IMG/VR virus record: IMGVR_UViG_3300032462_002466
Span: 1-39,303 of that record
Length of the DNA stretch: 39,303 nt
Strand: one strand, 5' to 3'
From: a virus
The position numbers and the translations under genes are program-made. This document shows, piece after piece, positions 5,659 to 39,280 of this stretch (positions are counted from its first letter, which is position 1; every line of letters begins with the position of its first letter). The notes under the pieces are model-generated. The model searched no databases. It was not told the DNA's origin and saw only the letters and a program-made list of their open reading frames with translations.

Positions 5659-5688
5659 AATTATTTCTCCATAAAGTGCAGATAGGAC

Positions 5689-5716: not shown

Positions 5717-5723
5717 GGTTTTA

Positions 5724-7343
5724 TCAAAAACCCTTTTTTTTGATCGTATTTAAATAAGAATTTACTTTCTTAATATCATATATACTAGATGCAGCCTTCG
5801 GTGTTTGTACTGTTGTATTATCTGGATTATGCTGAGATTGAGGACTATTTAACATACTCAATGCTCCATTTGCCAATCCTGTATAATAATTACTAAGACC
5901 TCTAGATGGACCATATTTAATTAATAAATTTAAGAAAGAAATTGCCTTTTGTAAATTTTTCTGATCTACCGCTGATGGAGATGATGATGTCCATTGCTGA
6001 GATGTTTGTGCAGCCTTATTAGTATTTTTACATTTTTGCAAGAAAGATACCAATTGCTCTTTATTACTAAAATTTACTTTCCCCAAAACACCAATCATAT
6101 CGTCAATAGTAATTCCTGATTTATTAGAAATGTCATTAACAAGTTTTACAATTATTTCAGAAATTGCAGCATTATATCCCTGCTGTCCTAATTGCTTATT
6201 AGCATCATATCCTATTTCACGATTTAAAAGAACCTTACTTCCATCTGAATCGATCTTGGAAACAGAGTATCCAAAATTTGTAAAATCTCTTAAAAGCTCT
6301 GGGCTTTCTATTATATTAATTTTATTTTTACTTATAAGATCATTAATAATACCTGTAGGATTCTGAACTACGACATCATATACATCTTCTAATCCAAATT
6401 TTTTAGAATCTGCTGTTACAGGCTTATACTGGTTAGATCTTCCTTTTTCTATAAAGTATTTTCCACTACCATTTAAAGCTTTTACTAATATATCTGCAAG
6501 CCAAGGCTCTGAAAGATATATCTTAATAGCATTAAATCCCCATGTTCTGTTTTCTCTTTGAAGATCGTGATCAACAACTTTATTTATAGAATTTTTATCA
6601 CCAACATACTTATCACCCATTATTCCTGTTCTGTTTCCAGGTTCTCCCCATTCTAAATCATTTTGATTTTGCAACGGCTGATTACCCTTATTATTAGCAG
6701 GATTAAGAGTGTCTACTTTGTTTTTTCCGAACATTCCCTTAAATTTATCCCATAATCCTGCAACTTTTGGATTTCCAAACAAGGCATCCTTTATAACTTC
6801 CTCATTAGCTGCAACTATATCACTAGCATTGTCATCAAATCCAGCAGATTTTAAGTCTGATATAATAGACATTAATTTTTTCGTTACATCTATAACACTA
6901 TTATCTAATCTACTAGATCCTGCCTTTATAGTATTTATTACAGATTCCCCGTAGCCTTCTCCCTCTTTCATTCTGGAAGCTACACTTTTTAAGAAAAAGT
7001 CTTGTTCTCTATCAAGTATATTTTTAGAAATTTTTATACTCTTCAAATTATCATCAGCGTACTTATTCCAAGATGCGTCATCGTTATTAATTGATTCTAA
7101 ATATTCCTTATGACAATCGAACCATGCATCATGTCCTGATTTTTTATCAGCCCTCTTGTGTCTGTAGCAATTCTCCCAACATCTTTTATTTCTTATCCAG
7201 TATCCTTGTACGCCAAGATACTGAGCCTTTTTGATTTTCAAGATATCGGACATAGCGATAGTTATATTGCTAGAAATCTTTTGCAAGCCACTAGACTCCA
7301 TTTTACCAGCTACTTTATCTAATATCCCTATTGCTTTTAGCAT
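5724..7343 (-). CDS. Hypothetical virion-region protein, 539 aa
   Basis: No family is recognised. The N-terminal 30 residues are predicted helical. A Cys/His-rich patch (RCWENCYRHKRADKKSGHDAWFDCH, residues 53-77) could bind metal. The centre is mixed helix and Gly/Asn-rich loop. The C-terminal third has predicted helices (NLLIKYGPSRGLSNYYTGL) and ends in a basic tail (KKVNSYLNTIKKKGF). KKAQYLG and KAASSIYDIKK copies of the recurrent motif occur at both ends. It is preceded 15 bases upstream by the DUF192-containing gene and has AAGGA before its ATG. Position suggests a structural or internal virion protein. Confidence 0.65.
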   Translation of the reverse strand: MLKAIGILDKVAGKMESSGLQKISSNITIAMSDILKIKKAQYLGVQGYWIRNKRCWENCYRHKRADKKSGHDAWFDCHKEYLESINNDDASWNKYADDNLKSIKISKNILDREQDFFLKSVASRMKEGEGYGESVINTIKAGSSRLDNSVIDVTKKLMSIISDLKSAGFDDNASDIVAANEEVIKDALFGNPKVAGLWDKFKGMFGKNKVDTLNPANNKGNQPLQNQNDLEWGEPGNRTGIMGDKYVGDKNSINKVVDHDLQRENRTWGFNAIKIYLSEPWLADILVKALNGSGKYFIEKGRSNQYKPVTADSKKFGLEDVYDVVVQNPTGIINDLISKNKINIIESPELLRDFTNFGYSVSKIDSDGSKVLLNREIGYDANKQLGQQGYNAAISEIIVKLVNDISNKSGITIDDMIGVLGKVNFSNKEQLVSFLQKCKNTNKAAQTSQQWTSSSPSAVDQKNLQKAISFLNLLIKYGPSRGLSNYYTGLANGALSMLNSPQSQHNPDNTTVQTPKAASSIYDIKKVNSYLNTIKKKGF

Positions 7344-14441: not shown

Positions 14442-16195
14442 GTAAATATTATATCGGAAATTTCCCTGTAATCATAAGTAGTTAATTGATCTATTTGTCT
14501 AAATCTAAAATAGTATATTCCAGATCTGGACAATTTCTGATCTATTTGAGATTTATATCTAATTCTTCTTCCTATAAAGGAAGAACGAACTCCATCTGGT
14601 TTTAATTCTGAAAATTCATTTTCATTCTCTTCAAAAGTCCATCCTGATAATGATTCTTGACTTTTTATATTAAATAAGATTGAACTGAAATCACTAGAAT
14701 CTGATACATCCATTTCAAAATGATAAAATGCAAAAGATTCGGCATCGTTGGTAAGTTCAAATTCTAATTCCCAATATCCGTTAGCATATATATTATCAGA
14801 TGTATATCTATTAATATTCTTATCAGCATCTTGTATTAATTCACTAAACTGTATATCTTTTTCATCCAAATAGTTGCTTGTACTCTGGAAAGTATTAGAA
14901 AAATTTGTAAACTTATTTCTTGATTCTATATATATTGCCAATGCCGATGATATATCGGAATACATAGAATTTATATATTGTAAAGAAGATTGATTATACA
15001 TGTCAAGTGATTTTATTAGAAGATCTACTGCTACTGGTATATCTTGGCTTAAAATGACTCTATCTCTAATCTGCTCTATATATCCTTCTTTCTTTAACAT
15101 ATAAGATATAGATCTTGCTAGATTATTTGCTGCCAATCTTATACTTTCACTTTCTGATAGTTTATTATCATTAATTTTTATTTCCGCGGGAAAAGTAATA
15201 TTTAATAACGGATCACCAAAGCATGCAATAGACCAATCGAAAAATGGCATACTAAACAACATAGCCTCTCCGATAGTTCCTCCTCTAATTAAAGTCTCGA
15301 AGAATGGTCTTGGTCTTAAAAAACCAAACATAGTTGGATTAGACATAGACCCGGCAAAACAGGCATATCCAGCTCTTAATGCTAATGTAGGCCATCTCCT
15401 GCTTGTTATATCTCTTATAGATGCCGCTCCATCAAAATCAGCATTGTATAAAAATACTCTAGATGCGGATGTTTCTCTGAAAAAAGAAAGAGATGCCCTG
15501 TCTGTAAACCATGACCAAACAAATGAATCATTTTCAACAAATGGTACAATAACATCCTCATATGGATCGATAAATGTAGTAATAAAAGAATTCAAATTTA
15601 ATAACGGTAACGTTCTGTCTTGAAAATCTAATATCTCATTTTGATAATCTTCTGCACCTAAGCCATGTCTATCAGAATAAGGATCTAAATAAAATGTTCC
15701 ATTAGGAAATCTTTGGATTCTAATCTTATCAGCTTTGTTAATCATACCTAAAGCTAATTCAACATTTGGAGCATCTATTCTAGAACATATTATAGATGTA
15801 GAAGTATCATTCTCGGAATATCTAGAAAAAACCCTTCTATCAAATAATGGGTTTCTAATCTTCCTACTATAAGAGTGATCATATCTCGATATACGAGATG
15901 TTGATGATATGATATTGCTACCATCAAGAAACCCACCTGGTATATTGTATCCAAGAACAACAGCCCATATACTATACCCTAAGCCTTCTAAGGTAGAAAT
16001 GGCACTAGAAATTGGATTCTTTACTTCACTATTGAAATCTGATTCATTATTTAATATCTCCGTAGCAGAACATGGAATAGATATTTTCTGAGCAGCATTT
16101 AGCCCATGCTTAGACACATAAAGATCAGCTACAGATTCGCTATCTGCATCTCCACTTCTATACGTTATAATTATATTTGATTTAGTAATAGCCAA
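14438..16195 (-). CDS. TIGR03790-like (gingipain/caspase-type fold) protein
   Basis: 585 residues from the TTG at 16195, which has GGAGG eight bases upstream. A GTG at 16210 extends the frame but lies inside that Shine-Dalgarno. The N-terminal 350 residues match, by recall, the TIGR03790 pattern of secreted bacterial proteins related to C25/caspase-like peptidases. Examples are YSIWAVVLGYNIPGGF, NVELALGMINKADKI, LRAGYACFAGSMSNPTMFG, PRPFFETLIRGGTIGEAMLFS and FDWSIACFGDPLLNITFP. The Cys in GYACFAGS lies where such folds carry an active-site or relic loop; no clear His partner is identified. The C-terminal 200 residues are beta-rich with an aromatic end (YFRFRQIDQLTTYDYREISDIIFT), like a binding domain. 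No signal peptide is seen. It is the first gene of the structural run, coupled to the next by ATGA. Confidence 0.7.
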   Translation of the reverse strand: MAITKSNIIITYRSGDADSESVADLYVSKHGLNAAQKISIPCSATEILNNESDFNSEVKNPISSAISTLEGLGYSIWAVVLGYNIPGGFLDGSNIISSTSRISRYDHSYSRKIRNPLFDRRVFSRYSENDTSTSIICSRIDAPNVELALGMINKADKIRIQRFPNGTFYLDPYSDRHGLGAEDYQNEILDFQDRTLPLLNLNSFITTFIDPYEDVIVPFVENDSFVWSWFTDRASLSFFRETSASRVFLYNADFDGAASIRDITSRRWPTLALRAGYACFAGSMSNPTMFGFLRPRPFFETLIRGGTIGEAMLFSMPFFDWSIACFGDPLLNITFPAEIKINDNKLSESESIRLAANNLARSISYMLKKEGYIEQIRDRVILSQDIPVAVDLLIKSLDMYNQSSLQYINSMYSDISSALAIYIESRNKFTNFSNTFQSTSNYLDEKDIQFSELIQDADKNINRYTSDNIYANGYWELEFELTNDAESFAFYHFEMDVSDSSDFSSILFNIKSQESLSGWTFEENENEFSELKPDGVRSSFIGRRIRYKSQIDQKLSRSGIYYFRFRQIDQLTTYDYREISDIIFT

Positions 16196-16196
16196 G

Positions 16197-16219
16197 AAAA
16201 AAACCTCCACTTGGAGGTT
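16197..16219 (-). terminator. Intrinsic terminator whose 3' arm carries the next gene's SD
   Basis: On the minus strand a 7-bp stem (AACCTCC/GGAGGTT, loop AAGT) is followed by seven T residues. It ends the nrdA-nrdB-mazG transcription unit. The 3' arm contains GGAGG, which is also the best ribosome binding site for the TTG start at 16195, so the hairpin would both terminate transcription and hide that site. Confidence 0.8.
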
Positions 16220-16287
16220 ATTTCGATAATTATATGATTTTACCTACTTGTATTTTACAACCAGACATCTAATATCTTATAATATAC

Positions 16288-16680
16288 TTAAAGTTGTTCT
16301 TTATAATTTTGTTCTAAAATACCTCTCTCCTTATCCAAGTCTCGAAACATAGAGGCTTCTGATGTAAATTTATCAGGATACCTAGCTTTTAACTTAGATA
16401 TATTAGCAGTCATAACTTCATCGAAATTACAACCGCAATAATGCAATCCTAAAGCGATATACCATAACAAATCTCCAAATTCTTCTTTTATATTAACTAT
16501 ATCAAGTGGCTTACCATAAAATATGGTTTTCTTTATGGCATCCATAATCTCTCCAACTTCTGTCTCGCAACCCATAGCCGCATGAAGAAGATCTGGATCA
16601 ATCTTATCTATATGATACTGAGAGCTTTTGCTTCTTAACATGTTAGATTGATAGTTATCTGATGTCATCCGTTCTGTCAT
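16288..16680 (-). CDS. MazG-like nucleotide pyrophosphohydrolase
   Basis: 130 residues, the size of a single-domain MazG. Such enzymes hydrolyse (d)NTPs to monophosphates with Mg2+ held by acidic pairs. The signature is visible: CETEVGEIMDAIKK (E-x-x-E region, residues 39-52) and NIKEEFGDLLWYIALGL (E-E-x-x-D, about 69-85). It lies 10 bases downstream of nrdB and just before the terminator, so it belongs to the nucleotide-pool operon. Phage MazG proteins have been linked to both dNTP control and alarmone lowering; the substrate cannot be read here. Confidence 0.85.
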   Translation of the reverse strand: MTERMTSDNYQSNMLRSKSSQYHIDKIDPDLLHAAMGCETEVGEIMDAIKKTIFYGKPLDIVNIKEEFGDLLWYIALGLHYCGCNFDEVMTANISKLKARYPDKFTSEASMFRDLDKERGILEQNYKEQL

Positions 16681-16690
16681 AAAAATCTCC

Positions 16691-17713
16691 TTAAAAGTCG
16701 TCTTTTACGATACCTGTTGCATAGTCTGTAACTCTAGATTCGAAGAAGTTTTTATTCTTCTGTAAATCTATAACTTCACTCATCCAGGGGAAAGGATTAA
16801 TATCTGAATTATATTTAAAATCCAATCCTAAAGATTCTAATCTTCTATTTGCAATATACTGAACATAATCAATAAACATAGGAGCATTTAGTCCTAATAT
16901 CCCATTTGGCATAACGTCATAAGCATATAGTATTTCTAAATCTACAGCTTTTTTAATATGTTCTATTGTTTCTTTTTCGAAAGCAGGATTCCAAACAGAA
17001 GGATGTTCTTTCCTAATTGTATTAATTAAATTTACACCAAACTGTATATGAAGAGACTCATCTCTGAGAGTATACTGAATCTGCTCTGATATTCCTGGAA
17101 GTTTATTTTGTCTTCCAAAACTAAGAAGCATAGCAAAACCACTAAAAAACATAATGCCTTCACATATGATATAATATGATAAGAGATTTCTTACAAGCTC
17201 TCTTTTCCCCTCAACCGATGTAGTATTAAATTCTGGCCTAGATATATCAGATGTTATTCCCATAAGAAAATCATCTTTTGCTTTAATAGACGGAACTGTT
17301 TTATAAGCTTCGTAAATCTCAGATATATCTAAACTAAGACTATCGCAAATATAAACTATAGTATGATTATGAAGAAGTTCTTCATAATTCTGGCGACCTA
17401 TATACTGTCTACATTCTGGATTAGTAACCCATCTGAATATAGATAGTAATAAATTATTAGCTACAAGACTTTCACTTCCTGCAAAAAAGCCTAAACATCT
17501 TTTAATAACCGTTCTCTCATCTTCGGTTAAATCTGTTTTAGATCTCCATTGCTCGATATCCCGATTCATTGGAACTTCTGTTGGAACCCAGTTGTTGGCA
17601 ACTGCTTTAATATAAGTATCCCATGCCCAGTTGTAAATAACCGGACATATCTGGTTTACACCAGCGATATCGTCAGTAAGTAACCCTGCTTTTTTTTGAA
17701 CTTTTTTAGACAT
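16691..17713 (-). CDS. nrdB: Ribonucleotide reductase small subunit, class Ic-like
   Basis: 340 residues from the ATG that overlaps the nrdA stop (TAATG); an in-frame ATG 18 bases upstream lies inside nrdA. It makes the radical cofactor for NDP reduction. Alignment by eye with the Chlamydia R2c protein is close throughout (NNWVPTEVPM, KAKDDF, YYIICEG, TLRDESLH, GILGLNAPMFIDYVQYIANRRLE, NPFPWMSE). Numbered from this start, the metal ligands are Glu81, Glu112, His115, Glu185, Glu219 and His222. Glu81 replaces the Asp of standard R2. The radical Tyr position, four after His115, is Ile119. Both features mark a tyrosyl-radical-free Mn/Fe-type enzyme. The C-terminus is the peptide that docks on NrdA. 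Confidence 0.93.
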   Translation of the reverse strand: MSKKVQKKAGLLTDDIAGVNQICPVIYNWAWDTYIKAVANNWVPTEVPMNRDIEQWRSKTDLTEDERTVIKRCLGFFAGSESLVANNLLLSIFRWVTNPECRQYIGRQNYEELLHNHTIVYICDSLSLDISEIYEAYKTVPSIKAKDDFLMGITSDISRPEFNTTSVEGKRELVRNLLSYYIICEGIMFFSGFAMLLSFGRQNKLPGISEQIQYTLRDESLHIQFGVNLINTIRKEHPSVWNPAFEKETIEHIKKAVDLEILYAYDVMPNGILGLNAPMFIDYVQYIANRRLESLGLDFKYNSDINPFPWMSEVIDLQKNKNFFESRVTDYATGIVKDDF

Positions 17714-20700
17714 TATTGGCAAGCCTCGCATATATCACCACGCTGTTTTGCTTCAAGTGAGCAAGCTTTAACTTCTGTGGTTTGTGATTCTGTTTTATCA
17801 CCACTTAAATATCCATTAGAGACATTTGAAGATGTTGATTTTTCTATTTTACTGGCTGATTTAGCACGAAGGTAATATGTCGTTTTTAATCCTTTTTCCC
17901 ATCCGTACATATAAATATCATTTAATATTTTTAAACTATCTGTATCTGCATATATATTAAGGCTTTGACCCTGATCTATCCAAACCTGCCTTGCAGCTGC
18001 ACATTTTATTAATGAAAGAGGACTAATTCTAAAAGCAGTTTTATATCTTTTCTTAATATTTTCTGGTAAATTAAGCATCTCTATATCTCCATCTACTGCC
18101 TTTACAGCATCTGTGAGATCTTTTCCCCAAAGTCCGCTTTTCTTCATATCATTTACGAAAAAATCACTTATCATTGTAAATTCACCAGACAATGTGCTGT
18201 AAACGAACAATACTGAAAAATCAGGCTCAATACTCTGTGAACACCCTGCAATATAAGAAATCGTAGCAGTTGGCGCAATAGCTAGTGTATTGGAATTTCT
18301 CATACCATATTCTGAAATATGTTTTCTAACAATACTCCAATCTAATGTCTCTTTTATCTTATCATCACTTCCTCTGTAATTCATGACATCCTCATGAGTA
18401 TCTTGAGGAAGTTTGCCAAGATTCCATAATGAACCATCGTATGTAGAGTATTTTCCCCTCTCCTTGGCTAAAATGCTTGAATTCAAAATAGCATGATATG
18501 ATATAAACTCTTGTATCTTTCCAGACTCTTCTGCTGCCATGTCTGAATCATAATCTATGCCAAGCATATGTATAGTATCATGAAATCCCATAATTCCAAG
18601 TCCTACTGGTCTATGAGAAATATTTGATTTTTTAGATTCTTTTGTTGGATAGAAATTTATATCAATAACATTATCTAGCATTCTCATGGCAATAGATATA
18701 GAAGTTGCTAGCTTCTCATAATTAATTTTTCCATTTTCCACATGAGCTGCTAAATTTATAGATCCTAGATTACAAACGGCTGTCTCCCCGATCTCCGATA
18801 CATCTCCTAAAGAATCATACATTGTAGGCTTAGAATGCAGTAGTATTTCCGTACAAAGATTAGAAGAACGAACAGTTCCCACATGCTGATTAGAATACCT
18901 AATATTAGATGGATCTTTAAAAGTTATCCAAGGATGACCTGTCTCAAATAAAGAAACAAGCATTTTCTTCCAAAGAGATTTTGCAGATACTTTCTTAAAT
19001 GGTATATCTCCATTTTCTGCTTTTTTGCAATACGAGATATAAGCTTTATCAAAAGCTTTTCCAAACAAATCGTGTAAATCAGGGCAGTCACTTGGACTAA
19101 ACAGATACCAATCTCCATCTTCTTTTGCTCTTCTCATAAAGAGATCTGGTATCCAATTAGCAGTATGCATATCGTGGCATCGTCTCCTATCGTCTCCTGT
19201 GTTTTTTCTAAGTTCCAAAAAATCTTCTATATCTGTGTGCCATGTTTCTAGATAGGCACAACCGGCACCCTTCCTTTTTCCTCCATTGTGTGCCAATCCT
19301 GAACTTGTTGTATAGGTTTCATCTCTCTTAACCTTCAAATCAACAACTATGGGCAATTTATCTATTTTCCTAACTGACTCAACTCTACTAAAAATATAAT
19401 TATTAATTACAAGCCAATTTTTCCTTGTTAAAGCTTTAGACCCTATTAATCTAGCAATTTCCTTAATAGCAGGTATTATTAAATCATAAGAAACAGTAGT
19501 CCCCTTAATCAAAGAGATCGATCCATCTCCTCTGGTAATTTCATGATCGTATTCTCTTGTTCTTTTATTTCCTGCTGAAGGCGCTCCTAGTCTAAGAATC
19601 TGATATCTCAATCCTTCTATTAAAAGTCTAGATGTATTACTAAATATAATTTCTTTTCCTCTTGAAATATTTCCATCAGAATCAAGTAGCCCTTTTATAA
19701 TCATCAATGATTGAGGTCTAGGAAGATGCATGAATTTTCCTGATATTCTTTTATTTCTTTCATTGTTATAAAGATCTTCGTAATCAAAAGGCAAATTACC
19801 ATTTAAACTCCATCTTACCTGACAATATTCGTCCCTAGTATCTATCCAGTAATGAATGTTTTTACTATCCAGATATTTTTTTATCCATAATATAGATTTC
19901 TGGTTAGTATTAATATTAAAAGATACACCGCATTCAGATTTATTTGATGAAATATGTCCGTCTCCAAGCATTAGTCCGTATAAATAGGCATCGTCATCAC
20001 TGAAGTTATTTACGGCTATAGTGTCCGTTGGAATAGGAAATGCTACATAATCTCCAGTTTTAAGAAGACTTGCTTCTACCCATTCAGTAGAAATTATACC
20101 TTTGCCAAATTTGTTATAAGTTCTTTGATTGTTAATTCCAGCAGGTATATTCTGTATAGCCAAAAATGGATGTCCTGTTGTAACTTTTACAGTATCGATA
20201 GAATGTTTTATATCTATTTCAACCATGTCATCGTTTTGCTCATAAAACATAACATCTTCAACTTCACATTGCTCTCCGTTCCCGGAAAGAATAAAATCTC
20301 CTTTTTGGACATTCTTAATCTGCTTAATTTCTTTTCCGGTAAAAACATATGTTTCTGGATCAAAACACTGATTTACGGCTACTAGCGTATCGTTAAATAT
20401 TTTTAGCCAAGGAACAAGACCTTGAGATTTACCATTTGTACCAGCTATAAAAGAAGATGAACCTCGTATGGGAGTCCAATCAACTCCAAGTCCTCCAGCA
20501 AATTTAGATAGCTTAGCTTGATTATGAATAGTCCCAAAAATACCATCAATAGAATCGTCAACGGTTGAAAGATAGCAAGAGCTTAATTGAGGATGGTTTG
20601 TACCACTGTTAAAAAGCGTTGGAGTTCCATTAATAAATAAATTTTCAGAAAGCAAGTTGTAAAACTCTATAGCTTTATCATCCTTATTCTCTTCATTAAT

Positions 20701-21249
20701 AGCAAGCCCCATAGCTACTCTCATCCAGAAGCCCTGTGGAGTTTCCATTCTTCTACCATTTATATGGAGTAGATATCTGTCATACACTGTTTGTATGCCA
20801 AGATATTTCCAAATATCATCCCTCTTAGGAACTAGTGATTTTGCTATCTTATTTAAATCAAAGTCTGTTAACATTCTCTTATCGATACGGCCTGCTTTTT
20901 GTAATTCTTTTAAATTTGTTACAAAAGACTTATGGTACTGCATACCGAAAACATCGGAATCGACTCCTTCACCGAAAACTTCTTTATATATTGTATTAAG
21001 CAATAATCTAGCAGCAACAATAGAATATCCTGGATCCTTTTCTATTTTGCTTCTTGCAGACATAATAAGAGCTTTATCTATCTCATTTGTTGTTATTTTA
21101 TTAAATAACTGTACTTGTGCATCAAGTATAACCTCGCTTGCAGAAACATCAAGTATACCTTGACATGCTCTTACTACACACTTATTTATCTTATCTAAGT
21201 TTAATTTTTCTAATCTACCATTACGTTTTTTTACAAAGAATTCAGACAT
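17713..21249 (-). CDS. nrdA: Ribonucleotide reductase large subunit interrupted by an intein
   Basis: 1178 codons; the mature enzyme would be 817 residues, normal for class I NrdA. It reduces NDPs to dNDPs. An N-terminal ATP-cone (FVKKRNGRLEKLNLDKINK to about residue 90) gives allosteric control. The first active-site Cys lies in LSSCYLS (Cys225) and its redox partner in AVCNLGS; the catalytic loop NLCTEILL is intact. The C-terminal tail ends DICEACQ, the mobile thiol pair. Residues 295-655 are an in-frame intein (separate entry). AAAGGAGA lies before the ATG. Translation is coupled to nrdB by a one-base overlap. A candidate promoter lies upstream at 21394-21399. Confidence 0.95.
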   Translation of the reverse strand: MSEFFVKKRNGRLEKLNLDKINKCVVRACQGILDVSASEVILDAQVQLFNKITTNEIDKALIMSARSKIEKDPGYSIVAARLLLNTIYKEVFGEGVDSDVFGMQYHKSFVTNLKELQKAGRIDKRMLTDFDLNKIAKSLVPKRDDIWKYLGIQTVYDRYLLHINGRRMETPQGFWMRVAMGLAINEENKDDKAIEFYNLLSENLFINGTPTLFNSGTNHPQLSSCYLSTVDDSIDGIFGTIHNQAKLSKFAGGLGVDWTPIRGSSSFIAGTNGKSQGLVPWLKIFNDTLVAVNQCFDPETYVFTGKEIKQIKNVQKGDFILSGNGEQCEVEDVMFYEQNDDMVEIDIKHSIDTVKVTTGHPFLAIQNIPAGINNQRTYNKFGKGIISTEWVEASLLKTGDYVAFPIPTDTIAVNNFSDDDAYLYGLMLGDGHISSNKSECGVSFNINTNQKSILWIKKYLDSKNIHYWIDTRDEYCQVRWSLNGNLPFDYEDLYNNERNKRISGKFMHLPRPQSLMIIKGLLDSDGNISRGKEIIFSNTSRLLIEGLRYQILRLGAPSAGNKRTREYDHEITRGDGSISLIKGTTVSYDLIIPAIKEIARLIGSKALTRKNWLVINNYIFSRVESVRKIDKLPIVVDLKVKRDETYTTSSGLAHNGGKRKGAGCAYLETWHTDIEDFLELRKNTGDDRRRCHDMHTANWIPDLFMRRAKEDGDWYLFSPSDCPDLHDLFGKAFDKAYISYCKKAENGDIPFKKVSAKSLWKKMLVSLFETGHPWITFKDPSNIRYSNQHVGTVRSSNLCTEILLHSKPTMYDSLGDVSEIGETAVCNLGSINLAAHVENGKINYEKLATSISIAMRMLDNVIDINFYPTKESKKSNISHRPVGLGIMGFHDTIHMLGIDYDSDMAAEESGKIQEFISYHAILNSSILAKERGKYSTYDGSLWNLGKLPQDTHEDVMNYRGSDDKIKETLDWSIVRKHISEYGMRNSNTLAIAPTATISYIAGCSQSIEPDFSVLFVYSTLSGEFTMISDFFVNDMKKSGLWGKDLTDAVKAVDGDIEMLNLPENIKKRYKTAFRISPLSLIKCAAARQVWIDQGQSLNIYADTDSLKILNDIYMYGWEKGLKTTYYLRAKSASKIEKSTSSNVSNGYLSGDKTESQTTEVKACSLEAKQRGDICEACQ
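19285..20367 (-). mobile_element. Intein with LAGLIDADG endonuclease, non-canonical +1 Gly
   Basis: 361 residues inserted between Gln and Gly of the conserved NrdA stretch VNQ|GGKRKGAG. Cys is the first residue (CFDPETYVFTG, block A). Block B has T-x-x-H (VTTGHPFL). Two LAGLIDADG motifs (LYGLMLGDGHIS and IIKGLLDSDGNIS) mark a homing endonuclease. The end is GLAHN. Canonical inteins are followed by Cys, Ser or Thr; here the next extein residue is Gly (codon GGA). So the second nucleophile is absent, as in some bacterial intein-like domains. Confidence 0.92.
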
Positions 21250-24187: not shown

Positions 24188-25381
24188 ATGGATCAGATTA
24201 TAAAAAGCGTCTTAGATGATGATATGTATAAAGTAACGATGCAAAATGCTGTCGTTGCTCAATACCCAAATGCTATCGCTAGATACCAGTTTATAAATAG
24301 GGGAAAAACTAAATTTCCACAAGGATTTGCATCCCTGCTAAGAGAGCAGGTTGATCTTTGTAACAACCTAAGCATGACAATGGATGAAAAGGAATTTATT
24401 TCCAGGAAATGCTATTTCTTACATCCACCTTTTATTGATTTTCTTTATGGATTTAAATTTAATCCAAGTGAAGTATCTATATTTCAAGTTGATGATGACC
24501 TTGAGATATCTATTGAAGGACCGTGGTACAGTGCTATAAGATGGGAAGTTGTTCTTATGGCTATGATAAGTGAATTATATTTTAAGGTATCTAAAAATAT
24601 TATTCTTACAGCACCAAATCTTCTAGATACGCCTACTCAGGTAGAAGAGAATGCTATATTAAAATTAACAAAATTAAAAGATGCAAACATTAAATACGCA
24701 GACTTTGGAACAAGAAGAAGATTCTCTTATAATGTTCAAAACAAAGTTGTTGAAACATTTAAGAAGTATGGAGGAAATCTCTTTTCCGGAACATCAAATA
24801 TTCATTTAGCAATGATAAATGATATTACTCCCATAGGAACACAAGCTCATGAATGGTTTAGCTTTCACGGAGCTAAGTATGGCTTTAAGATGGCTAATAC
24901 ATCTGCTATGGGAAAATGGGTAGACACGTATCATGGGAATTTAGGAATAGTCTTACCTGATACTTTTGGAACATCTAATTTCTGGAAGTCTTTTGACTCA
25001 TTTTACGCCAGACTATTTGATGGCGTTAGACACGATAGCGGAGACCCTATTAAGTTTGGGGAAAATACGATAAGCCACTATAATAATCTAAGAATAGATC
25101 CAAGAGGAAAAACCATAGTGTTTTCTGATGGTATAACTACAGATGAAGCCGTTAGAATTCAAAAATATTTTAAAGATAGAATAAAAATATCATTTGGTAT
25201 TGGAACACACTTTACAAATGATGTTGGAGCCTTACCGTTAAATATGGTTATAAAAATGATTCAATGTAAACCAGATAAAAACTCAGACTGGCTGCATACA
25301 ATCAAGCTATCAGATGTTCAAGGAAAACATACTGGCGATCCAGAAACCGTTGCTCTTTGTAAAAAAACCCTATTGGTATAA
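24188..25381 (+). CDS. pncB: Nicotinate phosphoribosyltransferase
   Basis: 397 residues, the length of E. coli PncB, and similar over the whole protein. It makes nicotinate mononucleotide from nicotinate and PRPP, with ATP hydrolysis, the first committed step of Preiss-Handler NAD+ synthesis. Visible blocks are SVLDDDMYKVTMQNAV at the start, ADFGTRRRFSY (172-181), FSGTSNIHLA, PIGTQAHEWF (catalytic His at 221) and RHDSGDPIKFGE. The phosphate-binding region is KISFGIGTHFTND. The pattern is PncB rather than the nicotinamide-using NadV. First gene of a four-gene plus-strand operon with 2-base and overlapping junctions. Confidence 0.95.
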   Translation: MDQIIKSVLDDDMYKVTMQNAVVAQYPNAIARYQFINRGKTKFPQGFASLLREQVDLCNNLSMTMDEKEFISRKCYFLHPPFIDFLYGFKFNPSEVSIFQVDDDLEISIEGPWYSAIRWEVVLMAMISELYFKVSKNIILTAPNLLDTPTQVEENAILKLTKLKDANIKYADFGTRRRFSYNVQNKVVETFKKYGGNLFSGTSNIHLAMINDITPIGTQAHEWFSFHGAKYGFKMANTSAMGKWVDTYHGNLGIVLPDTFGTSNFWKSFDSFYARLFDGVRHDSGDPIKFGENTISHYNNLRIDPRGKTIVFSDGITTDEAVRIQKYFKDRIKISFGIGTHFTNDVGALPLNMVIKMIQCKPDKNSDWLHTIKLSDVQGKHTGDPETVALCKKTLLV

Positions 25382-25383
25382 TT

Positions 25384-25674
25384 ATGAACAATCCAGAAGA
25401 AAACATACTCTTATGCGTTAGAGTTGAAGATTTAAAAGATCCAAAAACATCTTGCGTAAAAACAACTTGTGAATTTTGCAAGCAAGATGTATGGGTAGAC
25501 CAGAATTCTTTAGACAAAGCATCTGAAAACGAATTACCAGTAAAAATATGCTGTAATAAATGCTTACTCGAAGGATGTATTACAGCTGATGAAATTTTTA
25601 ATATAGAAAATAGAGAAGATATTCTAAAATCAATATCATATATCTCTAAGAATCTAAGGAGTAAATGGAAATGA
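25384..25674 (+). CDS. Small Cys-rich protein in NAD operon
   Basis: 96 residues. Four Cys in two pairs (CEFCKQDVW and CCNKCLLEGC) look like a zinc ribbon. The gene starts two bases after pncB and its stop overlaps the nadE start region, so it is made together with the NAD+ enzymes. No family is recognised. The C-terminal half is a predicted helix (REDILKSISYISKNLRSK). Confidence 0.65.
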   Translation: MNNPEENILLCVRVEDLKDPKTSCVKTTCEFCKQDVWVDQNSLDKASENELPVKICCNKCLLEGCITADEIFNIENREDILKSISYISKNLRSKWK

Positions 25675-27617
25675 AAATAACATTATCTCAAATGAATGTT
25701 GTACCTGGAAATATTAAAAAGAATATTAATAATATGCTTGCGTCTATAGCAGAAGCTAAAGAAAAAGAATCAGATGTAATTGCATTTCCAGAAATGTGTA
25801 TTGGCGGATATATGCTAGGAGATTATTATAGAGATAGGGAAACAATAGATGAAATAGTGTCTGCTCATGATATTATCAAGGAAGCAAGTGATAATATAAC
25901 TATAATTTTTGGAAGTGTTCTTCCGGATTATAAGAATAAAAATAACGATGGAAGATTTAGATTATATAATGCTATATACGTATATAGGGATAAAGATATT
26001 GTTAATAGATCTTTCAGCAGCTTTCTTGTAAAAAGCAATCTTCCAAATTATAGAATATTTGATGATAAAAGATATTTTTCCAATACTGTAGATTTTTCTA
26101 ATTCTATTGGATCAAATAAAATAGAAGATTTTTTCCATCCAATTCTAATTAAAGAAAAACAAACTGACAATTCATTTAGAGACATTCCTGTTGGAATAGA
26201 ACTATGTGAAGATTTGTGGTGTTCAGATTACGAGTTTGCATTAGAATCATTAAATCCAACTTGTTACTTTATAAAAAACGGGGCTCAATTTATTATTAAT
26301 CTATCCGCAAGCCCCTGGACATGCGGTAAAAATGAAGCAAGAGATAGAAGAGTAAAAGAGGTAAGAGATGATTGTAAAAAAAGATTGGGATACGTATCTA
26401 AATTTGTTCCATTCTTTTATGTGAATTGTGTTGGCGTACAGAATAACGGTAAAAATATAATAACATTTGACGGAGGCTCTACTGTTTATAATAACAATGG
26501 AGATACTGTAGTATTTGCTAATCAAGAAGGTCTTCCAGAAGATCTGCTTTTCGATACAAATAGTATACAAGATAGTAAACCAAGAAAAAATATAGAAAAA
26601 ATAGAACAGAAATTTTTAGCAATAGTACATGGGCTAATAGGATTTAAAACTATTAATGGATTAAATGATTTTCCAACGGTAGTAATAGGAATAAGCGGAG
26701 GAATAGACTCTGCTGTTGTTGCAGCACTATGCGTATACGCCTTTGGTAAAAACAAAGTTATTGGCGTTAATATGCCATCAAAATACAATTCTGAAAAAAC
26801 AAGAAATGCAGCTAAGGAATTAGCAGATAATTTAGGCATAGAGTATTTAGTAATTCCAATAGAAGATATAAATGAGGAAACCAAGAAAACATTAAAAAAT
26901 TATTCTGGTCAAAAAATTACGCCTTTAGCTGATGAAAATATACAAGCAAAAATAAGAGCAACATCTATATTATCCAACCTCGCACAGTGTATTTCTGAAG
27001 AAAGGAATACACCAGTTATATTTACAAACAATGGTAATAAAATAGAAATAGCCCTTGGGTATGCAACTTTGTACGGAGACTGGGGAGGAGCTATATCTCC
27101 AATCGGAGATCTAACAAAACAAGAGGTATATGAGATGGCAAAGTATTTAGGAAAAATAATTCCTAATGAAATGCTTCCTGATGATAAATTTGAATTCACA
27201 GAAGATAAAATAGCTCCTAGTGCTGAGCTTAAATATAATCAATTAGATCCTATATTAATAGGATATCACTGTGCTATTATAAACTCATGGATGAATTATA
27301 ATAAAAAATCACCATCTGACTTTTTAAGATGGTGGCTAGAAGGAACACTTGCTAAAAATCTAAATATAGATCCTTATCTTATTACTAAATATAAGATGGA
27401 TATTGCTGAAAATTTTGTACAAGACTTAAAATGGGTATTTACTAAATTCAGACAAGCAGCATATAAAAGAGTTCAAAGCCCTCCAATTATTATTACATCC
27501 AAAACGGCATTCGGATACGACTGGAGAGAACCTATACTCCCTCCTTTCGAATTCTCCAATGAGGCAAACTCTTTAATTAAAGAAATACTACTTAAAAAGG
27601 TTATGAAAAATGAATAA
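25671..27617 (+). CDS. nadE: Glutamine-dependent NAD+ synthetase
   Basis: 648 residues with the two-domain layout of glutamine-hydrolysing NadE. ATG at 25671 was chosen because AAGGAG is nine bases upstream; an ATG six bases earlier is only three bases from it. The N-terminal nitrilase-type glutaminase has the triad Glu41 (AFPEMCIGGY), Lys121 (LVKSNLPNY) and Cys179 (GIELCEDLW). The synthetase domain has the PP-loop ISGGIDSAVV (341-350) and downstream GYATLYGDWGGAISPIGDLTK. It converts nicotinate adenine dinucleotide to NAD+ using glutamine and ATP. All key residues are present. It overlaps the next gene by eight bases. Confidence 0.95.
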   Translation: MKITLSQMNVVPGNIKKNINNMLASIAEAKEKESDVIAFPEMCIGGYMLGDYYRDRETIDEIVSAHDIIKEASDNITIIFGSVLPDYKNKNNDGRFRLYNAIYVYRDKDIVNRSFSSFLVKSNLPNYRIFDDKRYFSNTVDFSNSIGSNKIEDFFHPILIKEKQTDNSFRDIPVGIELCEDLWCSDYEFALESLNPTCYFIKNGAQFIINLSASPWTCGKNEARDRRVKEVRDDCKKRLGYVSKFVPFFYVNCVGVQNNGKNIITFDGGSTVYNNNGDTVVFANQEGLPEDLLFDTNSIQDSKPRKNIEKIEQKFLAIVHGLIGFKTINGLNDFPTVVIGISGGIDSAVVAALCVYAFGKNKVIGVNMPSKYNSEKTRNAAKELADNLGIEYLVIPIEDINEETKKTLKNYSGQKITPLADENIQAKIRATSILSNLAQCISEERNTPVIFTNNGNKIEIALGYATLYGDWGGAISPIGDLTKQEVYEMAKYLGKIIPNEMLPDDKFEFTEDKIAPSAELKYNQLDPILIGYHCAIINSWMNYNKKSPSDFLRWWLEGTLAKNLNIDPYLITKYKMDIAENFVQDLKWVFTKFRQAAYKRVQSPPIIITSKTAFGYDWREPILPPFEFSNEANSLIKEILLKKVMKNE

Positions 27618-31980: not shown

Positions 31981-32052
31981 AACACCTGGAGGGATTCGAA
32001 CCCTCACTCTAGTTTTTAGAAAACCGTACTCTACCAATTGAGTTACAGGTGC
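31981..32052 (-). tRNA. tRNA with anticodon CUA (amber suppressor)
   Basis: A full 72-base cloverleaf on the minus strand. The acceptor is GCACCTG/CAGGTGT, with G1-U72 and discriminator U. D arm ACTC/GAGT; T arm GAGGG-TTCGAAT-CCCTC; variable loop GAGT. The anticodon loop TTCTAAA has CTA at positions 34-36 with U33 and A37, so it reads UAG. The anticodon stem CGGTT/AACTA has one mismatch at its base. It lies between the nuclease gene and the HD gene, both minus strand, and so is probably processed from their message. The amino acid is not certain; discriminator U is not typical of tRNA-Gln. Confidence 0.9.
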
Positions 32053-36360: not shown

Positions 36361-36363
36361 AAA

Positions 36364-36450
36364 CGGAAGACTAAGGACTCGAACCTTATGGCTTTTAGAC
36401 CACCACTCGTTTTCCAAACGAGGCCGCTGTGCCCAGTCGGTTAATCTTCC
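36364..36450 (-). tRNA. tRNA-Ser(GGA)
   Basis: Class II cloverleaf. Anticodon arm CTCGT-TTGGAAA-ACGAG gives GGA, reading UCU and UCC. Acceptor GGAAGAT/GTCTTCC, discriminator G as usual for Ser. T arm TAAGG-TTCGAGT-CCTTA, long variable arm. Last tRNA of the array. Confidence 0.95.
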
Positions 36451-36454
36451 AAAG

Positions 36455-36540
36455 CGGTAGGTGCCGGAGTCGAACCGACAAAGCCCTTTCAGGCTTGCTC
36501 GATTTCAAATCGAGGAGGCTTGCCAATGCCCAAACCTACC
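36455..36540 (-). tRNA. tRNA-Ser(UGA)
   Basis: Acceptor GGTAGGT/ACCTACC, discriminator G. Anticodon arm CTCGA-TTTGAAA-TCGAG gives UGA, reading UCA. Long variable arm (AGCC/GGCT stem). Four bases from the next tRNA. Confidence 0.95.
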
Positions 36541-37241: not shown

Positions 37242-37255
37242 AAAAATCCTTTCAA

Positions 37256-37341
37256 CGGAAACGGCGAGATTCGAACTCGCGGGCGGGATTCCCGCCTCCT
37301 GTTTTCGAAACAAGTACCTTAAGCCACTCAGTCACGTTTCC
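37256..37341 (-). tRNA. tRNA-Ser(CGA)
   Basis: Acceptor GGAAACG/CGTTTCC, discriminator G. Anticodon arm CTTGT-TTCGAAA-ACAGG gives CGA, reading UCG. Variable arm GGCGGG/CCCGCC. T arm GCGAG-TTCGAAT-CTCGC. Confidence 0.95.
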
Positions 37342-37343
37342 AA

Positions 37344-37531
37344 TTACAGTTGCGACTTAATTGGTATTATGACGGTTCCCGCTCGGCTCATGGCCGGGTC
37401 TGATGATAGCCTAGATGCAGTCTTAACTATCCTATTGCTCATTTAGAACAAACTCAGAGTACGCCCTTTTGTCATAATTTCTAGCTTTACCATATTCCTG
37501 CACTCAGCCAGTTAAGGCATCGCAACTGTAA
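37344..37531. other. 188-base element bounded by 12-bp inverted repeats
   Basis: Perfect inverted repeat TTACAGTTGCGA (37344-37355) and TCGCAACTGTAA (37520-37531). After a 3-base bulge the stem continues with CTTAA/TTAAG. Internal complements include ATTATGAC/GTCATAAT, CTTAACT/AGTTAAG and the hairpin CGGC-CATGA-GCCG. It fills the space between two Ser tRNAs exactly. It may be a structured RNA or a small transposon-like remnant. A 32-codon minus frame (MSNRIVKTASRLSSD...) inside it is not convincing as a gene. Confidence 0.6.
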
Positions 37532-37532
37532 A

Positions 37533-37621
37533 CGGAAGTGACAGGATTCGAACCTGTGGGGCTATCAATTTAACCCGCAAGTTTAGCAAACTTGAGCCAT
37601 AAGCCGCTCGGCCACACTTCC
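37533..37621 (-). tRNA. tRNA-Ser(GCU)
   Basis: Acceptor GGAAGTG/CACTTCC, discriminator G. Anticodon arm CAAGT-TTGCTAA-ACTTG gives GCU, reading AGU and AGC. Long variable arm, T arm ACAGG-TTCGAAT-CCTGT. Confidence 0.95.
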
Positions 37622-37686
37622 AAATTTCATTCTATTGACTTACCATAAAGATAAAGATTAATGTTTACAATCCTTTATCTTATCAA

Positions 37687-37825
37687 AGCTGCGAATAGGA
37701 GTCGAACCTATCTAAATCAATACACGGGAGTCCACATGTATGACGACAATCACCAGTCTCAGACGTAGCAGACTCAATCGATTTGACTGGCAACCTGTCA
37801 ACGCTTCCGCAGCGTTTGCCGCAGC
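37687..37825 (-). ncRNA. Oversized tRNA-like RNA (139 bases)
   Basis: The ends form a 7-bp acceptor-like stem (GCTGCGG/TCGCAGC) beside a normal T arm (ATAGG-TTCGACT-CCTAT). Between them, in order: a 6-bp hairpin (AACGCT/AGCGTT) in the D-arm place; a long arm (GACA/TGTC, then GCCAGTC/GACTGGT) with a 25-base loop in the anticodon place; and a 7-bp hairpin (ATACATG/CGTGTAT) in the variable-arm place. The order matches a class II tRNA, but no normal anticodon loop or D loop GG is present. It sits between tRNA-Leu(AAG) and tRNA-Ser(GCU). No tmRNA signature is seen. Confidence 0.6.
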
Positions 37826-37834
37826 ATACTATAA

Positions 37835-37919
37835 TATCCTTAGCAGGATTCGAACCTGCAATAACCTTTCGGTTGCCACTACCTTAAAGTGGTGCGTCTG
37901 CCAATTCCGCCATAAGGAC
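37835..37919 (-). tRNA. tRNA-Leu(AAG)
   Basis: Acceptor GTCCTTA/TAAGGAT with G1-U72, discriminator A. Anticodon arm CCACT-TTAAGGT-AGTGG gives AAG, reading CUU, and CUC if A34 becomes inosine. Variable arm AACC-GAAA-GGTT. T arm GCAGG-TTCGAAT-CCTGC. Confidence 0.93.
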
Positions 37920-37946: not shown

Positions 37947-38162
37947 TTATGTGATATTTTTTACCCACTTATCACATGTTGAACAATAGTAACCTGAATC
38001 ATTATTCCCAGAAGGATCTGGCTCGTATACAAAATTATGAGGACATCTATCTTTAACTTCTTTCTCTTCTAATGCAAACTTTTCCGACATTTTCTTCTTT
38101 TTTACATGAATTTCTATTAATCTTTTGGACACGGTTTTTAATGACAGGAGTTTGTTATTCAT
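37947..38162 (-). CDS. Small zinc-ribbon protein, 71 aa
   Basis: Helical basic N-terminus (KTVSKRLIEIHVKKKKMSEKFALEEKEVKD) and a C-terminal ribbon CPHNFVYEPDPSGNNDSGYYCSTCDKWVKNI, where three Cys and a His could bind zinc. Not recognised. It is one of the protein genes inside the tRNA array. Confidence 0.6.
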   Translation of the reverse strand: MNNKLLSLKTVSKRLIEIHVKKKKMSEKFALEEKEVKDRCPHNFVYEPDPSGNNDSGYYCSTCDKWVKNIT

Positions 38163-38190: not shown

Positions 38191-38529
38191 TTAATCTATT
38201 TCAATAAATCCAAGGGGAATTAATCTATTTTTGACTATTTCCCAAACTTCTTCAAAAGACTTAGTAGAATCATACCATATAAGATGATATGATTCGGAAG
38301 CACCTATATCAATATTAAGTCCTGAGCCTTCAAAAGCTTCATTCATAATATCATTAACAGATTCATAATCACTGAGCATTCCCTCTGTCTCTGATTCTGG
38401 TCCGCAATAAAAGGCGCATTGCTCACCTTCTTGATAATTTCGACCTGCCGTATCACCTTTGAAAAATATAACTCTACCAGAAAGATATTGTTCTTTTTCT
38501 AAAGATTTTCCACCGTCTAGGATAATCAT
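38191..38529 (-). CDS. Hypothetical acidic protein, 112 aa
   Basis: The pattern is MIILDGGKSLEKEQYLSGRVIFFKGDTAG at the start and SYHLIWYDSTKSFEEVWEIVKNRLIPLGFIEID at the end. It is compact, acidic and probably alpha/beta. AAAGGAAAAACC precedes the ATG. No family is recognised. It separates tRNA-Leu(UAA) from the rest of the array. Confidence 0.6.
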   Translation of the reverse strand: MIILDGGKSLEKEQYLSGRVIFFKGDTAGRNYQEGEQCAFYCGPESETEGMLSDYESVNDIMNEAFEGSGLNIDIGASESYHLIWYDSTKSFEEVWEIVKNRLIPLGFIEID

Positions 38530-38607
38530 GGTTTTTCCTTTTTCTAAAGAATATTTGGTTAAACATGCCCTAAAGATAAGACATTATAAAATACTTCCGG
38601 AGAAAAA

Positions 38608-38692
38608 TACCGCCAGCAGGATTCGAACCTGCACGAGTTTTTAGCTCACTGGATTTTAAATCCAGGTCGTCTACCAATTCCGGCATGGCGGC
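38608..38692 (-). tRNA. tRNA-Leu(UAA)
   Basis: Acceptor GCCGCCA/TGGCGGT, discriminator A. Anticodon arm CTGGA-TTTAAAA-TCCAG gives UAA, reading UUA. Variable arm GAG/CTC. It differs from tRNA-Leu(CAA) at only three positions by eye. Confidence 0.96.
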
Positions 38693-38705
38693 ATATCATA
38701 AAAAA

Positions 38706-38787
38706 TGCGGGTGAAGGGATTTGAACCCATACCTCTTTCGAGACCAGAACCTAAATCTGGCGCGGCTGCCAATTACGCCACACCCGC
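38706..38787 (-). tRNA. tRNA-Leu(UAG)
   Basis: Acceptor GCGGGTG/CACCCGC, discriminator A. Anticodon arm CCAGA-TTTAGGT-TCTGG gives UAG, reading CUA and probably other CUN codons. Variable arm CTC-GAAA-GAG. T arm ATGGG-TTCAAAT-CCCTT. Confidence 0.95.
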
Positions 38788-38802
38788 AATACTCTAAACC
38801 AA

Positions 38803-38886
38803 TGTGCCGGATAGGACTCGAACCTATAATCGCCGTTAGGCAGCAGATTTACAGTCTGCCTGCTTATCCAGTTTGCATACCGACAC
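38803..38886 (-). tRNA. tRNA-Tyr(GUA)
   Basis: Acceptor GTGTCGG/CCGGCAC, discriminator A. Anticodon arm GCAGA-CTGTAAA-TCTGC gives GUA, reading UAU and UAC. It has the long variable arm expected of bacterial tRNA-Tyr. T arm ATAGG-TTCGAGT-CCTAT. Confidence 0.95.
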
Positions 38887-38894
38887 AAAGAAAA

Positions 38895-38979
38895 TACCGC
38901 CAGCAGGATTCGAACCTGCACGAGTTTTTAGCTCACTGGATTTTGAATCCAGGTCGTCTACCAATTCCGTCATAGCGGC
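38895..38979 (-). tRNA. tRNA-Leu(CAA)
   Basis: Acceptor GCCGCTA/TGGCGGT, discriminator A. Anticodon arm CTGGA-TTCAAAA-TCCAG gives CAA, reading UUG. It is a near-identical copy of tRNA-Leu(UAA), with the wobble base changed. Confidence 0.95.
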
Positions 38980-38989
38980 ATATTATAAA

Positions 38990-39071
38990 AGGGCAGTATG
39001 GGACTCGAACCCATGAAGGATTGCTCCACTCGTTTTGCAGACGAGCTCGTTAGCCGCTCCGACAACCGCCC
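38990..39071 (-). tRNA. tRNA-Cys(GCA) with long variable arm
   Basis: Acceptor GGGCGGT/ACTGCCC, discriminator U as in tRNA-Cys. Anticodon arm CTCGT-CTGCAAA-ACGAG gives GCA, reading UGC and UGU. The variable region is 14 bases with a GGA-GCAA-TCC hairpin and the D stem is short, a Ser-like class II body. Ordinary bacterial tRNA-Cys has a short variable loop. First tRNA of the array. Confidence 0.88.
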
Positions 39072-39110
39072 TGTGATAAATGCGTTAATCTATTCACTTG
39101 TCAAAGACCA

Positions 39111-39143
39111 AAGAAAAAGCCCCATCATTTCTGACAGGGCTTT
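39111..39143 (-). terminator. Attenuator terminator before the tRNA array
   Basis: On the minus strand AAAGCCC (39143-39137) pairs with GGGCTTT (39122-39116) across a 14-base loop and runs into TTTTTCTTT. It lies between the leader peptide and tRNA-Cys, so transcription must pass it to reach the array. Its 5' arm is shared with the antiterminator stem. Confidence 0.85.
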
Positions 39144-39192
39144 GATATTGCTAATTTGGATGCGTGATTCATCCTTGCAATGTCAAAGCCCT
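39136..39192 (-). promoter_or_regulatory. Antiterminator hairpin, exclusive with the terminator
   Basis: AGGGCTTTGACATTGC (39192-39177) pairs with GCAATATCAAAGCCCT (39151-39136) over 16 positions with one G-U. An inner 5-bp stem (GGATG/CATCC) stacks above it. Its 3' arm contains the whole 5' arm of the terminator, so only one can form. The leader stop codon (39171-39169) lies six bases past its 5' arm, so a ribosome at the stop would cover that arm. Confidence 0.82.
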
Positions 39193-39246
39193 ATTTGATA
39201 GACTCAAATAGAGGCAAGACAACGAAGATGATAAGTTCTGTTTCAT
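39169..39246 (-). CDS. 25-codon leader peptide of the tRNA array
   Basis: ATG at 39246 to TGA at 39169. Codons 5-17 are all Leu, Ser, Cys or Tyr. Grouped by reading tRNA: UUA at 5; UUG at 9 and 14; CUC at 12; CUA at 16; UCA at 6 and 17; UCU at 7 and 10; UCG at 8; AGU at 15; UGC at 11; UAU at 13. Each of the ten downstream tRNAs (Leu UAA, CAA, AAG, UAG; Ser UGA, GGA, CGA, GCU; Cys GCA; Tyr GUA) is represented. No Shine-Dalgarno precedes the ATG, which sits where transcription should begin, so it may be leaderless. Its job is presumably to sense tRNA supply, not to make a useful peptide. Confidence 0.8.
   Translation of the reverse strand: MKQNLSSSLSCLYLSLSNRALTLQG
39191..39211 (-). promoter_or_regulatory. 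Leader hairpin within the sensing codons
   Basis: CTATTTGA/TCAAATAG, an 8-bp stem with a 5-base loop, lies in codons 12-19 of the leader. It overlaps the antiterminator's 5' arm by two bases. It corresponds to the 1:2 stem of classical attenuators. Confidence 0.65.
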
Positions 39247-39252
39247 AATGGT

Positions 39253-39280
39253 ATTATACCGTCTTATCGTATCACTTCAA
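39253..39280 (-). promoter_or_regulatory. Promoter of the leader and tRNA array
   Basis: On the minus strand TTGAAG (39280-39275), a 16-base spacer, then a perfect TATAAT (39258-39253). The expected start point is at or near 39246, the A of the leader ATG. It is a host sigma70-type sequence, which would suit early expression. Confidence 0.75.

Follow-up and report, generated by a model that had tools for sequence, protein, structure and literature searches.

A short ORF with codons for the array lies upstream of ten tRNA genes

The DNA analyzed here, referred to as the window, is a 39,303-base virus fragment from IMG/VR that contains a terminase gene. At its right end, ARAGORN identified an array of ten minus-strand tRNA genes (39072-36363) consisting of one Cys, four Leu, one Tyr and four Ser tRNAs, with the anticodons, in order, Cys-GCA, Leu-CAA, Tyr-GUA, Leu-UAG, Leu-UAA, Leu-AAG, Ser-GCU, Ser-CGA, Ser-UGA and Ser-GGA. 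The features of the array and of the region upstream of it are as follows.

39253..39280, minus strand: promoter-like site, TTGAAG-16-TATAAT (consensus scan, 10/12 matches)
39169..39246, minus strand: leader peptide ORF of 25 codons, MKQNLSSSLSCLYLSLSNRALTLQG and stop (direct reading; ATG at 39246, TGA ends 39169)
39196..39234, minus strand: putative sensing codons 5-17, TTA TCA TCT TCG TTG TCT TGC CTC TAT TTG AGT CTA TCA
39169..39231, minus strand: protector hairpin (1:2), codon 6 to stop (MFE and centroid fold, z -4.56)
39191..39211, minus strand: early hairpin of 8 bp, CTATTTGA-gtcta-TCAAATAG, within the protector
39177..39194, minus strand: arm 2, the antiterminator 5' arm, leader codons 18-24 (RNAduplex with arm 3)
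39134..39151, minus strand: arm 3, common to antiterminator (2:3) and terminator (3:4)
39116..39143, minus strand: intrinsic terminator, 12 bp, 4-nt loop, -16.7 kcal/mol, with a U-rich tail at 39115-39107
38989..39072, minus strand: tRNA-Cys (GCA) (ARAGORN, Rfam)
38894..38980, minus strand: tRNA-Leu (CAA) (ARAGORN, Rfam)
38802..38887, minus strand: tRNA-Tyr (GUA) (ARAGORN, Rfam)
38705..38788, minus strand: tRNA-Leu (UAG) (ARAGORN, Rfam)
38607..38693, minus strand: tRNA-Leu (UAA) (ARAGORN, Rfam)
38191..38529, minus strand: 112-aa ORF among the tRNAs, same strand, without family match
37947..38162, minus strand: 71-aa ORF among the tRNAs, same strand
37835..37919, minus strand: tRNA-Leu (AAG) (ARAGORN, Rfam)
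37532..37622, minus strand: tRNA-Ser (GCU) (ARAGORN, Rfam)
37255..37342, minus strand: tRNA-Ser (CGA) (ARAGORN, Rfam)
36454..36540, minus strand: tRNA-Ser (UGA) (ARAGORN; Rfam gathering score not exceeded)
36363..36451, minus strand: tRNA-Ser (GGA), last of the array (ARAGORN; Rfam gathering score not exceeded)

A sequence-only reading of the window had reported a 25-codon ORF before the ten tRNAs, and its position proved exact (39246-39169, minus strand). The ORF reads ATG AAA CAG AAC TTA TCA TCT TCG TTG TCT TGC CTC TAT TTG AGT CTA TCA AAT AGG GCT TTG ACA TTG CAA GGA TGA. The further claim that codons 5-17 encode only Leu, Ser, Cys and Tyr, with a match for all ten tRNAs, was confirmed by the ARAGORN anticodons and by reading of the codons: 13/13 codons specify these amino acids, and each array anticodon has a cognate codon among them. 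The listed codons include ones that are rare in the window phage, such as TCG (3% of Ser codons) and CTC (2.5% of Leu codons). In window genes, 21.5% of codons specify Leu, Ser, Cys or Tyr, and the chance of a 13-codon run of them at a fixed place is ~2e-9. When every ORF within 320 bases upstream of the array was allowed, 0/5000 dinucleotide shuffles equaled the match (p = 0.0002, the floor of the test). With the amino acids held fixed and synonymous codons drawn at phage usage, 3% of draws covered all ten anticodons.

No Shine-Dalgarno sequence was found for the window leader ORF. The consensus-like promoter of the sequence-only reading is present as a 10/12 match, but such sites are not above chance in the window (10 found versus 10.9 expected). 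If this site is used, the transcript would start approximately at the ATG and the leader mRNA would be leaderless; both promoter activity and translation of the ORF are inferred.

Several other features of the window were recorded. The tRNA-Leu with anticodon AAG (A34; 37835-37919, minus strand) is unusual in bacteria and was also seen in three further sequences (L122, L125 and L127). Two minus-strand segments between tRNAs have complementary ends, namely, 37623-37834 (GCTGCG...CGCAGC, with a T-arm-like GGTTCGACTCC) and 37343-37531 (ACAGTTGCGA...TCGCAACTGT), and may each hold a tRNA or another small RNA that escaped detection. A tRNA with a CUA anticodon at 31981-32052 (minus strand), named tRNA-Pyl by ARAGORN, probably serves as an amber suppressor; LR756511 (L023), G025 (L136), G035 (L139), LR756501 (L154) and mycobacteriophages (L157, L160) have similar tRNAs with this anticodon. 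A ribonucleotide reductase large-subunit-like ORF (17713-21249, minus strand) has an apparent intein-like insert (CFDPETYVFTG ... AHNGG), and two NAD salvage-like genes, nicotinamide phosphoribosyltransferase-like and NAD synthetase-like, were recognized by eye only at 24188-27617 (plus strand).

The leader RNA can form mutually exclusive stems

Folding of the window leader by minimum free energy (MFE) bore out a structured RNA: the fold was more stable than those of 200/200 shuffles (z -4.6), and the full-length MFE structure consisted of the protector hairpin and the terminator. The protector, which had not been noted in the sequence-only reading, occupies the antiterminator arm in the untranslated full-length RNA. 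The 8-bp early hairpin described there is present at 39211-39191. The antiterminator, which had been given as a stem of 16 positions, exists but is actually made of 17 pairs around one mismatch, joining 39194-39177 with 39151-39134 (-26.1 kcal/mol, p = 0.002 by RNAduplex), and the U-tailed terminator was found to share an arm with it as claimed (39143-39116).

We then modeled equilibrium folding with an assumed ribosome footprint placed at each codon. With the A-site at codons 9-14, the antiterminator formed with a probability of ~0.85 and the terminator with a probability of ~0, while at codons 6-8 and 15-16 both stems were partly formed. The antiterminator probability fell to 0 with the A-site at codons 19-26, and a ribosome at the stop codon gave the terminator. 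The model thus agrees with the proposal for stalls at codons 9-14 and for a ribosome at the stop. When arm 4 was not yet transcribed, the antiterminator formed at every stall up to codon 15. In untranslated RNA at equilibrium, the antiterminator was also preferred (0.85) before arm 4 emerges, despite the protector in the full-length MFE fold, and therefore the off state of the window without translation is uncertain.

Leaders matching their arrays occur in other large phages

No close relatives of the window phage were found in IMG/VR by protein scans with three window proteins or by a DNA pattern for the leader, and terminase alignment gave 77 distant relatives. Comparison of terminases pointed to the huge phage LR745208 and to Tunturi_5, a jumbo phage in culture, and LR756511 was reached through a tRNA match. 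Clear leaders were found in the huge phages LR745208, LR756511 and LR756501 (735 kb) and in three IMG/VR contigs (G001, G018 and G035), as well as in the cultured phages Tunturi_5, Bacillus phage G (gp86) and the Ceeclamvirinae of M. smegmatis (Ser/Leu arrays). The tRNAs of LR745208 are divided among small arrays, and several of these have a promoter-like site and a leader to themselves. Leaders and the arrays that they precede are listed below.

LR745208, MNSYTTSERERESDSERT: Glu/Asp array
LR745208, ...HGRDGGTLARGCGRVQRRRRIR...: Arg/Gly array
LR745208, MRFFTTTRTRTAGLT...: Thr array
LR745208, ...APAATAACVVACVGPAAPPAA: Pro/Ala array
LR745208, MNQHLHHHCY: Tyr/Cys/His array
LR745208, Leu-array leader: codons CTG, CTA, TTG, CTT and TTA, for all five Leu anticodons of the array
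LR745208, Gln-rich ORF end: before Gln tRNAs
G001, MNRLFTTTSTTTLSLTWLSRSYLS...: Leu/Ser/Trp/Phe/Tyr/Thr
G018, ...ASAVAGSCASGWSGRGMGSSSGRS...: Arg/Ser/Gly/Ala/Trp/Cys; also Gln and Glu/Asn arrays
G035, MSFKNDNNWRDADDN...: Asn/Asp/Trp
G035, ...VSVSIMCGSVSCSSG...: Ile/Cys/Ser/Met/Gly/Val
LR756501, MIQEQMQQIQ...: Met/Gln/Ile/Glu
LR756501, ...TPAPAVAFRRGTGTGTGTCVPAG...: Arg/Thr/Val/Ala/Gly/Pro
LR756501, ...SKHSKHFSSSSKWF...: Trp/His/Phe/Lys/Ser
LR756501, Leu-array leader: all six Leu codons used

The LR756511 array contains Ser, Leu and Tyr tRNAs without Cys, and its leader (...SASLRLSSYSLSSLLYS...) likewise lacks Cys and is followed by a strong terminator. In Tunturi_5, MKTLCLSSYCLSSSLSLS... precedes a Leu/Cys/Tyr/Ser array and is unannotated in its record, and two more leaders precede the other two large arrays. 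The paper describing this phage reports 43 tRNAs and two enzymes acting on tRNA, a nucleotidyltransferase and a splicing ligase, and does not report a leader. The annotated genes for these two enzymes (L150:5136-6584 and 15763-16944) sit between leader-controlled arrays, an arrangement that is consistent with tRNA damage during infection. Among the Ceeclamvirinae mycobacteriophages, MFALLSLSSSLRLS (Phabba, Myrna) and MFAFRLSLSSSLLS (Colt) precede Ser/Leu arrays; the hairpin is retained despite its changed sequence, and the leaders begin ~7 nt after a TACAGT -10-like hexamer. In phage G, gp86 (MMKCSWFEFDTDFTDVFYCEYTFYSLYTF...) precedes a Cys/Asp/Phe/Tyr/Glu/Thr/Ser/Trp array with a U-tract terminator. 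Phabba and phage G had been chosen as negative controls, and both proved positive. A Shine-Dalgarno-like sequence is present in only some leaders, e.g., those of phage G and LR756511. Leaders of different phages share no sequence, and the only rule common to them is that their composition equals the amino-acid set of the array.

Such leaders are not universal. A clear leader was absent from the Ser array and the Lys/Val/Arg array of LR745208 and from many tRNA arrays of the same terminase clade, and no convincing leader was found in T4 (p 0.73 for its array), S-CRM01 or Streptomyces phage Faust (p 0.013 for one array). The idea that only tRNAs with a long variable arm (Leu, Ser, Tyr) are involved was dropped, as leaders were found for Thr, Gln, Glu/Asp, Arg/Gly, Pro/Ala and His arrays. 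In L122 (upstream of 2837), L125 (upstream of 12471, minus strand) and L127 (upstream of 2621), arrays that cover almost every amino acid share a conserved upstream ORF with (V/A)WCAL. This ORF is possibly a leader listing many codons; it was left out of the leader count, since a 20-amino-acid array cannot be judged by a set score. In LR745208, two TnpB-like genes, recognized by eye, flank the terminase gene (L004:1605-2906 and 5074-6357).

Leader codons track array content

A permutation test without hand choice was applied, in which each upstream region was scored against each array by the same best-ORF rule and the arrays were then permuted. Over 75 multi-tRNA phage arrays, the sum for own pairs was 442.6 versus 294.9 +/- 13.0 after permutation (z 11.3), and 20,000 permutations peaked at 355.4. 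The own upstream region ranked in the top 5% for 20/75 arrays, against 3.8 expected. This set includes the window, and arrays from the same phage or from related phages are only partly independent. In an earlier set of 67 arrays, the sums were 348.7 versus 247.9 +/- 11.7. For LR745208 alone, 60 of 362,880 exact permutations reached its own match, and among seventeen hand-picked leaders the own array was best or tied for nearly all, a result reached by 0/100,000 permutations. The proposal would have been refuted by related arrays without a leader or by leader codons unconnected with array content, and the results went the other way. Moreover, 112/120 anticodons were covered by a leader codon versus 95.8 expected from random synonymous codons (z 5.0), and therefore leaders tend to represent isoacceptors, beyond amino acids.

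Strong U-tract terminators lie between the ORF and the first tRNA in the window, LR756511, LR756501, Tunturi_5, G001, G035 and phage G, and most share the antiterminator arm; the G018-Gln array also has an intrinsic terminator in this position. The end of the leader ORF doubles as an antiterminator arm in the window, G001, G035, LR756501 and arrays A and B of Tunturi_5 (mostly p 0.002-0.10), and with the arm so placed their anatomy is that of a trp/his-type attenuator. No significant antiterminator was found for LR756511, G018-Gln, Tunturi_5 C or the Leu array of LR756501 (p 0.31). No U-tract terminator was found for the leaders of LR745208 and the mycobacteriophages, whose arrays probably use a variant, either a U-less hairpin or Rho.

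A proposed tRNA-sensing attenuator and its alternatives

What is observed is that leader codons match the array and covary with it from phage to phage, and that the window and most U-tract arrays have mutually exclusive stems; real stalling, transcriptional read-through, and tRNA loss rather than amino-acid shortage as the signal are inferred. In the absence of expression, stalling or reporter data, we nevertheless hold with considerable confidence that the window element is a ribosome-mediated transcription attenuator that switches on the tRNA array when the matching tRNAs are scarce. RNA polymerase would start at the leader, and a trailing ribosome would read a short test message made up of codons that the array's tRNAs decode. 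With these tRNAs charged and in good supply, the ribosome would reach the stop and cover the antiterminator arm (codons 18-24); the terminator would then form and keep the array off. When a listed tRNA is scarce, the ribosome is predicted to wait in codons 5-17, leaving the antiterminator arm free to pair with the terminator 5' arm; polymerase could then continue into the ten tRNA genes, and the missing tRNAs would be replaced. What the leader could measure is slow decoding of its listed codons, and host shut-off, phage-driven demand or tRNA-cutting defenses (e.g., anticodon nucleases) are possible causes of tRNA loss.

Slow decoding from any cause would trip this switch, and the trp, his and leu leaders respond to amino-acid starvation. 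The same attenuator might thus sense uncharged Leu, Ser, Cys and Tyr tRNAs, with tRNA output as part of a general starvation response. We regard this as unlikely: extra tRNA gives no relief of an amino-acid shortage, sets such as LSCY, PA, NDW, ICSMGV, MQIE and RTVAGP track array membership and not biosynthetic families, and the codon choice of the leaders resolves isoacceptors (z 5.0), which is needless for amino-acid sensing. Loss of tRNA is inferred to be the most economical signal because the output tRNAs would correct only a tRNA shortage. A different decision step is conceivable, in which translation of the leader works chiefly by way of Rho or RNA processing, the ribosome shielding or exposing nascent RNA without an intrinsic terminator decision. 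The equally strong codon match of the LR745208 and mycobacteriophage leaders, which have no U-tract terminator, makes this reading likely at least for them, but as a general account it is improbable given the seven phages and contigs with strong U-tract terminators, most of which share the antiterminator arm.

The leader might instead simply encode a small functional protein whose composition is unrelated to the tRNAs. The protein annotation of gp86 supports this, yet we give it very little credence, as the leaders have no common sequence between phages beyond a composition equal to the array's amino-acid set and many ORF ends also serve as an antiterminator arm. Chance, meaning a low-complexity Leu/Ser ORF beside Leu/Ser tRNAs, deserves mention because Leu and Ser are frequent amino acids and several short ORFs are present in any 170-bp region; it is excluded for practical purposes by the shuffle p of 0.0002, by the permutation z of 11.3 over 75 arrays, and by examples without Leu or Ser, such as MSFKNDNNWRDADDN before Asn/Asp/Trp.

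Codon-listing leaders beside an RNA switch thus precede tRNA arrays in several unrelated groups of large phages, which probably sense tRNA shortage by them and supply replacements when needed. With more reserve, we lean towards a circuit, widespread among phages, by which each tRNA operon assays its own products at isoacceptor resolution, detects tRNA destruction driven by the host or its defenses, and replaces the missing set. No published description of leader-peptide control of phage tRNA arrays was found in the open-licence literature, the only literature searched, and an earlier description elsewhere is possible. The view of the sequence-only reading that no phage tRNA array was known to be so controlled stands to that extent; the idea of a peculiarity of one phage is too narrow.

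Significance and relation to known systems

For decades the presence of tRNA genes in phages has been debated, with codon compensation set against rescue from tRNA-cutting defenses. An attenuator that reads the exact codons of its array would mean that the phage expects those tRNAs to become limiting and measures the shortage, and the question is therefore directly testable. Such an attenuator would be a natural multi-input tRNA sensor, predicting which tRNAs run short in each host, and would account for unannotated ORFs and for gp86 of phage G, an orphan gene. The proposal is immediately open to experiment, as such leaders are present in cultured phages whose hosts are M. smegmatis, Bacillus megaterium and Tunturiibacter.

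Transcriptional control of a phage tRNA cluster is known from the T4 tRNA operon (Goldfarb and Daniel 1980, cited in PMC9693318), but the T4 array has no codon-matching upstream leader ORF (p 0.73). Where PrrC-, retron- or PARIS-type nucleases destroy host tRNAs, phage tRNAs take their place, and in the abstracts of the reports on this rescue no sensing or on-demand control was found described (PMC10264068; PMC11555353); the attenuator would supply such control. T-box riboswitches likewise sense the state of tRNA and control transcription of translation-related genes, but they bind uncharged tRNA directly, without a leader peptide. A T-box identity for the phage leaders was rejected, as no T-box or other known leader family scored there (Rfam 15).

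The closest parallel in design is with the attenuators of amino-acid operons (trp, his, leu, thr and phe, in E. coli and others), which also have a short leader ORF rich in regulatory codons and stems for a protector (in the window, one seen in the full-length fold), an antiterminator and a terminator, with the position of the stall deciding the outcome. Unlike these, the phage leaders would control tRNA genes and not biosynthetic genes that make the sensed amino acid; they list up to eight amino acids and tend toward the codon of each isoacceptor. They are found in phages, their mRNA may be leaderless, and their output would restore the decoding tRNA. The proposed window attenuator would work like the amino-acid-operon type, yet by its target it lies outside that family.
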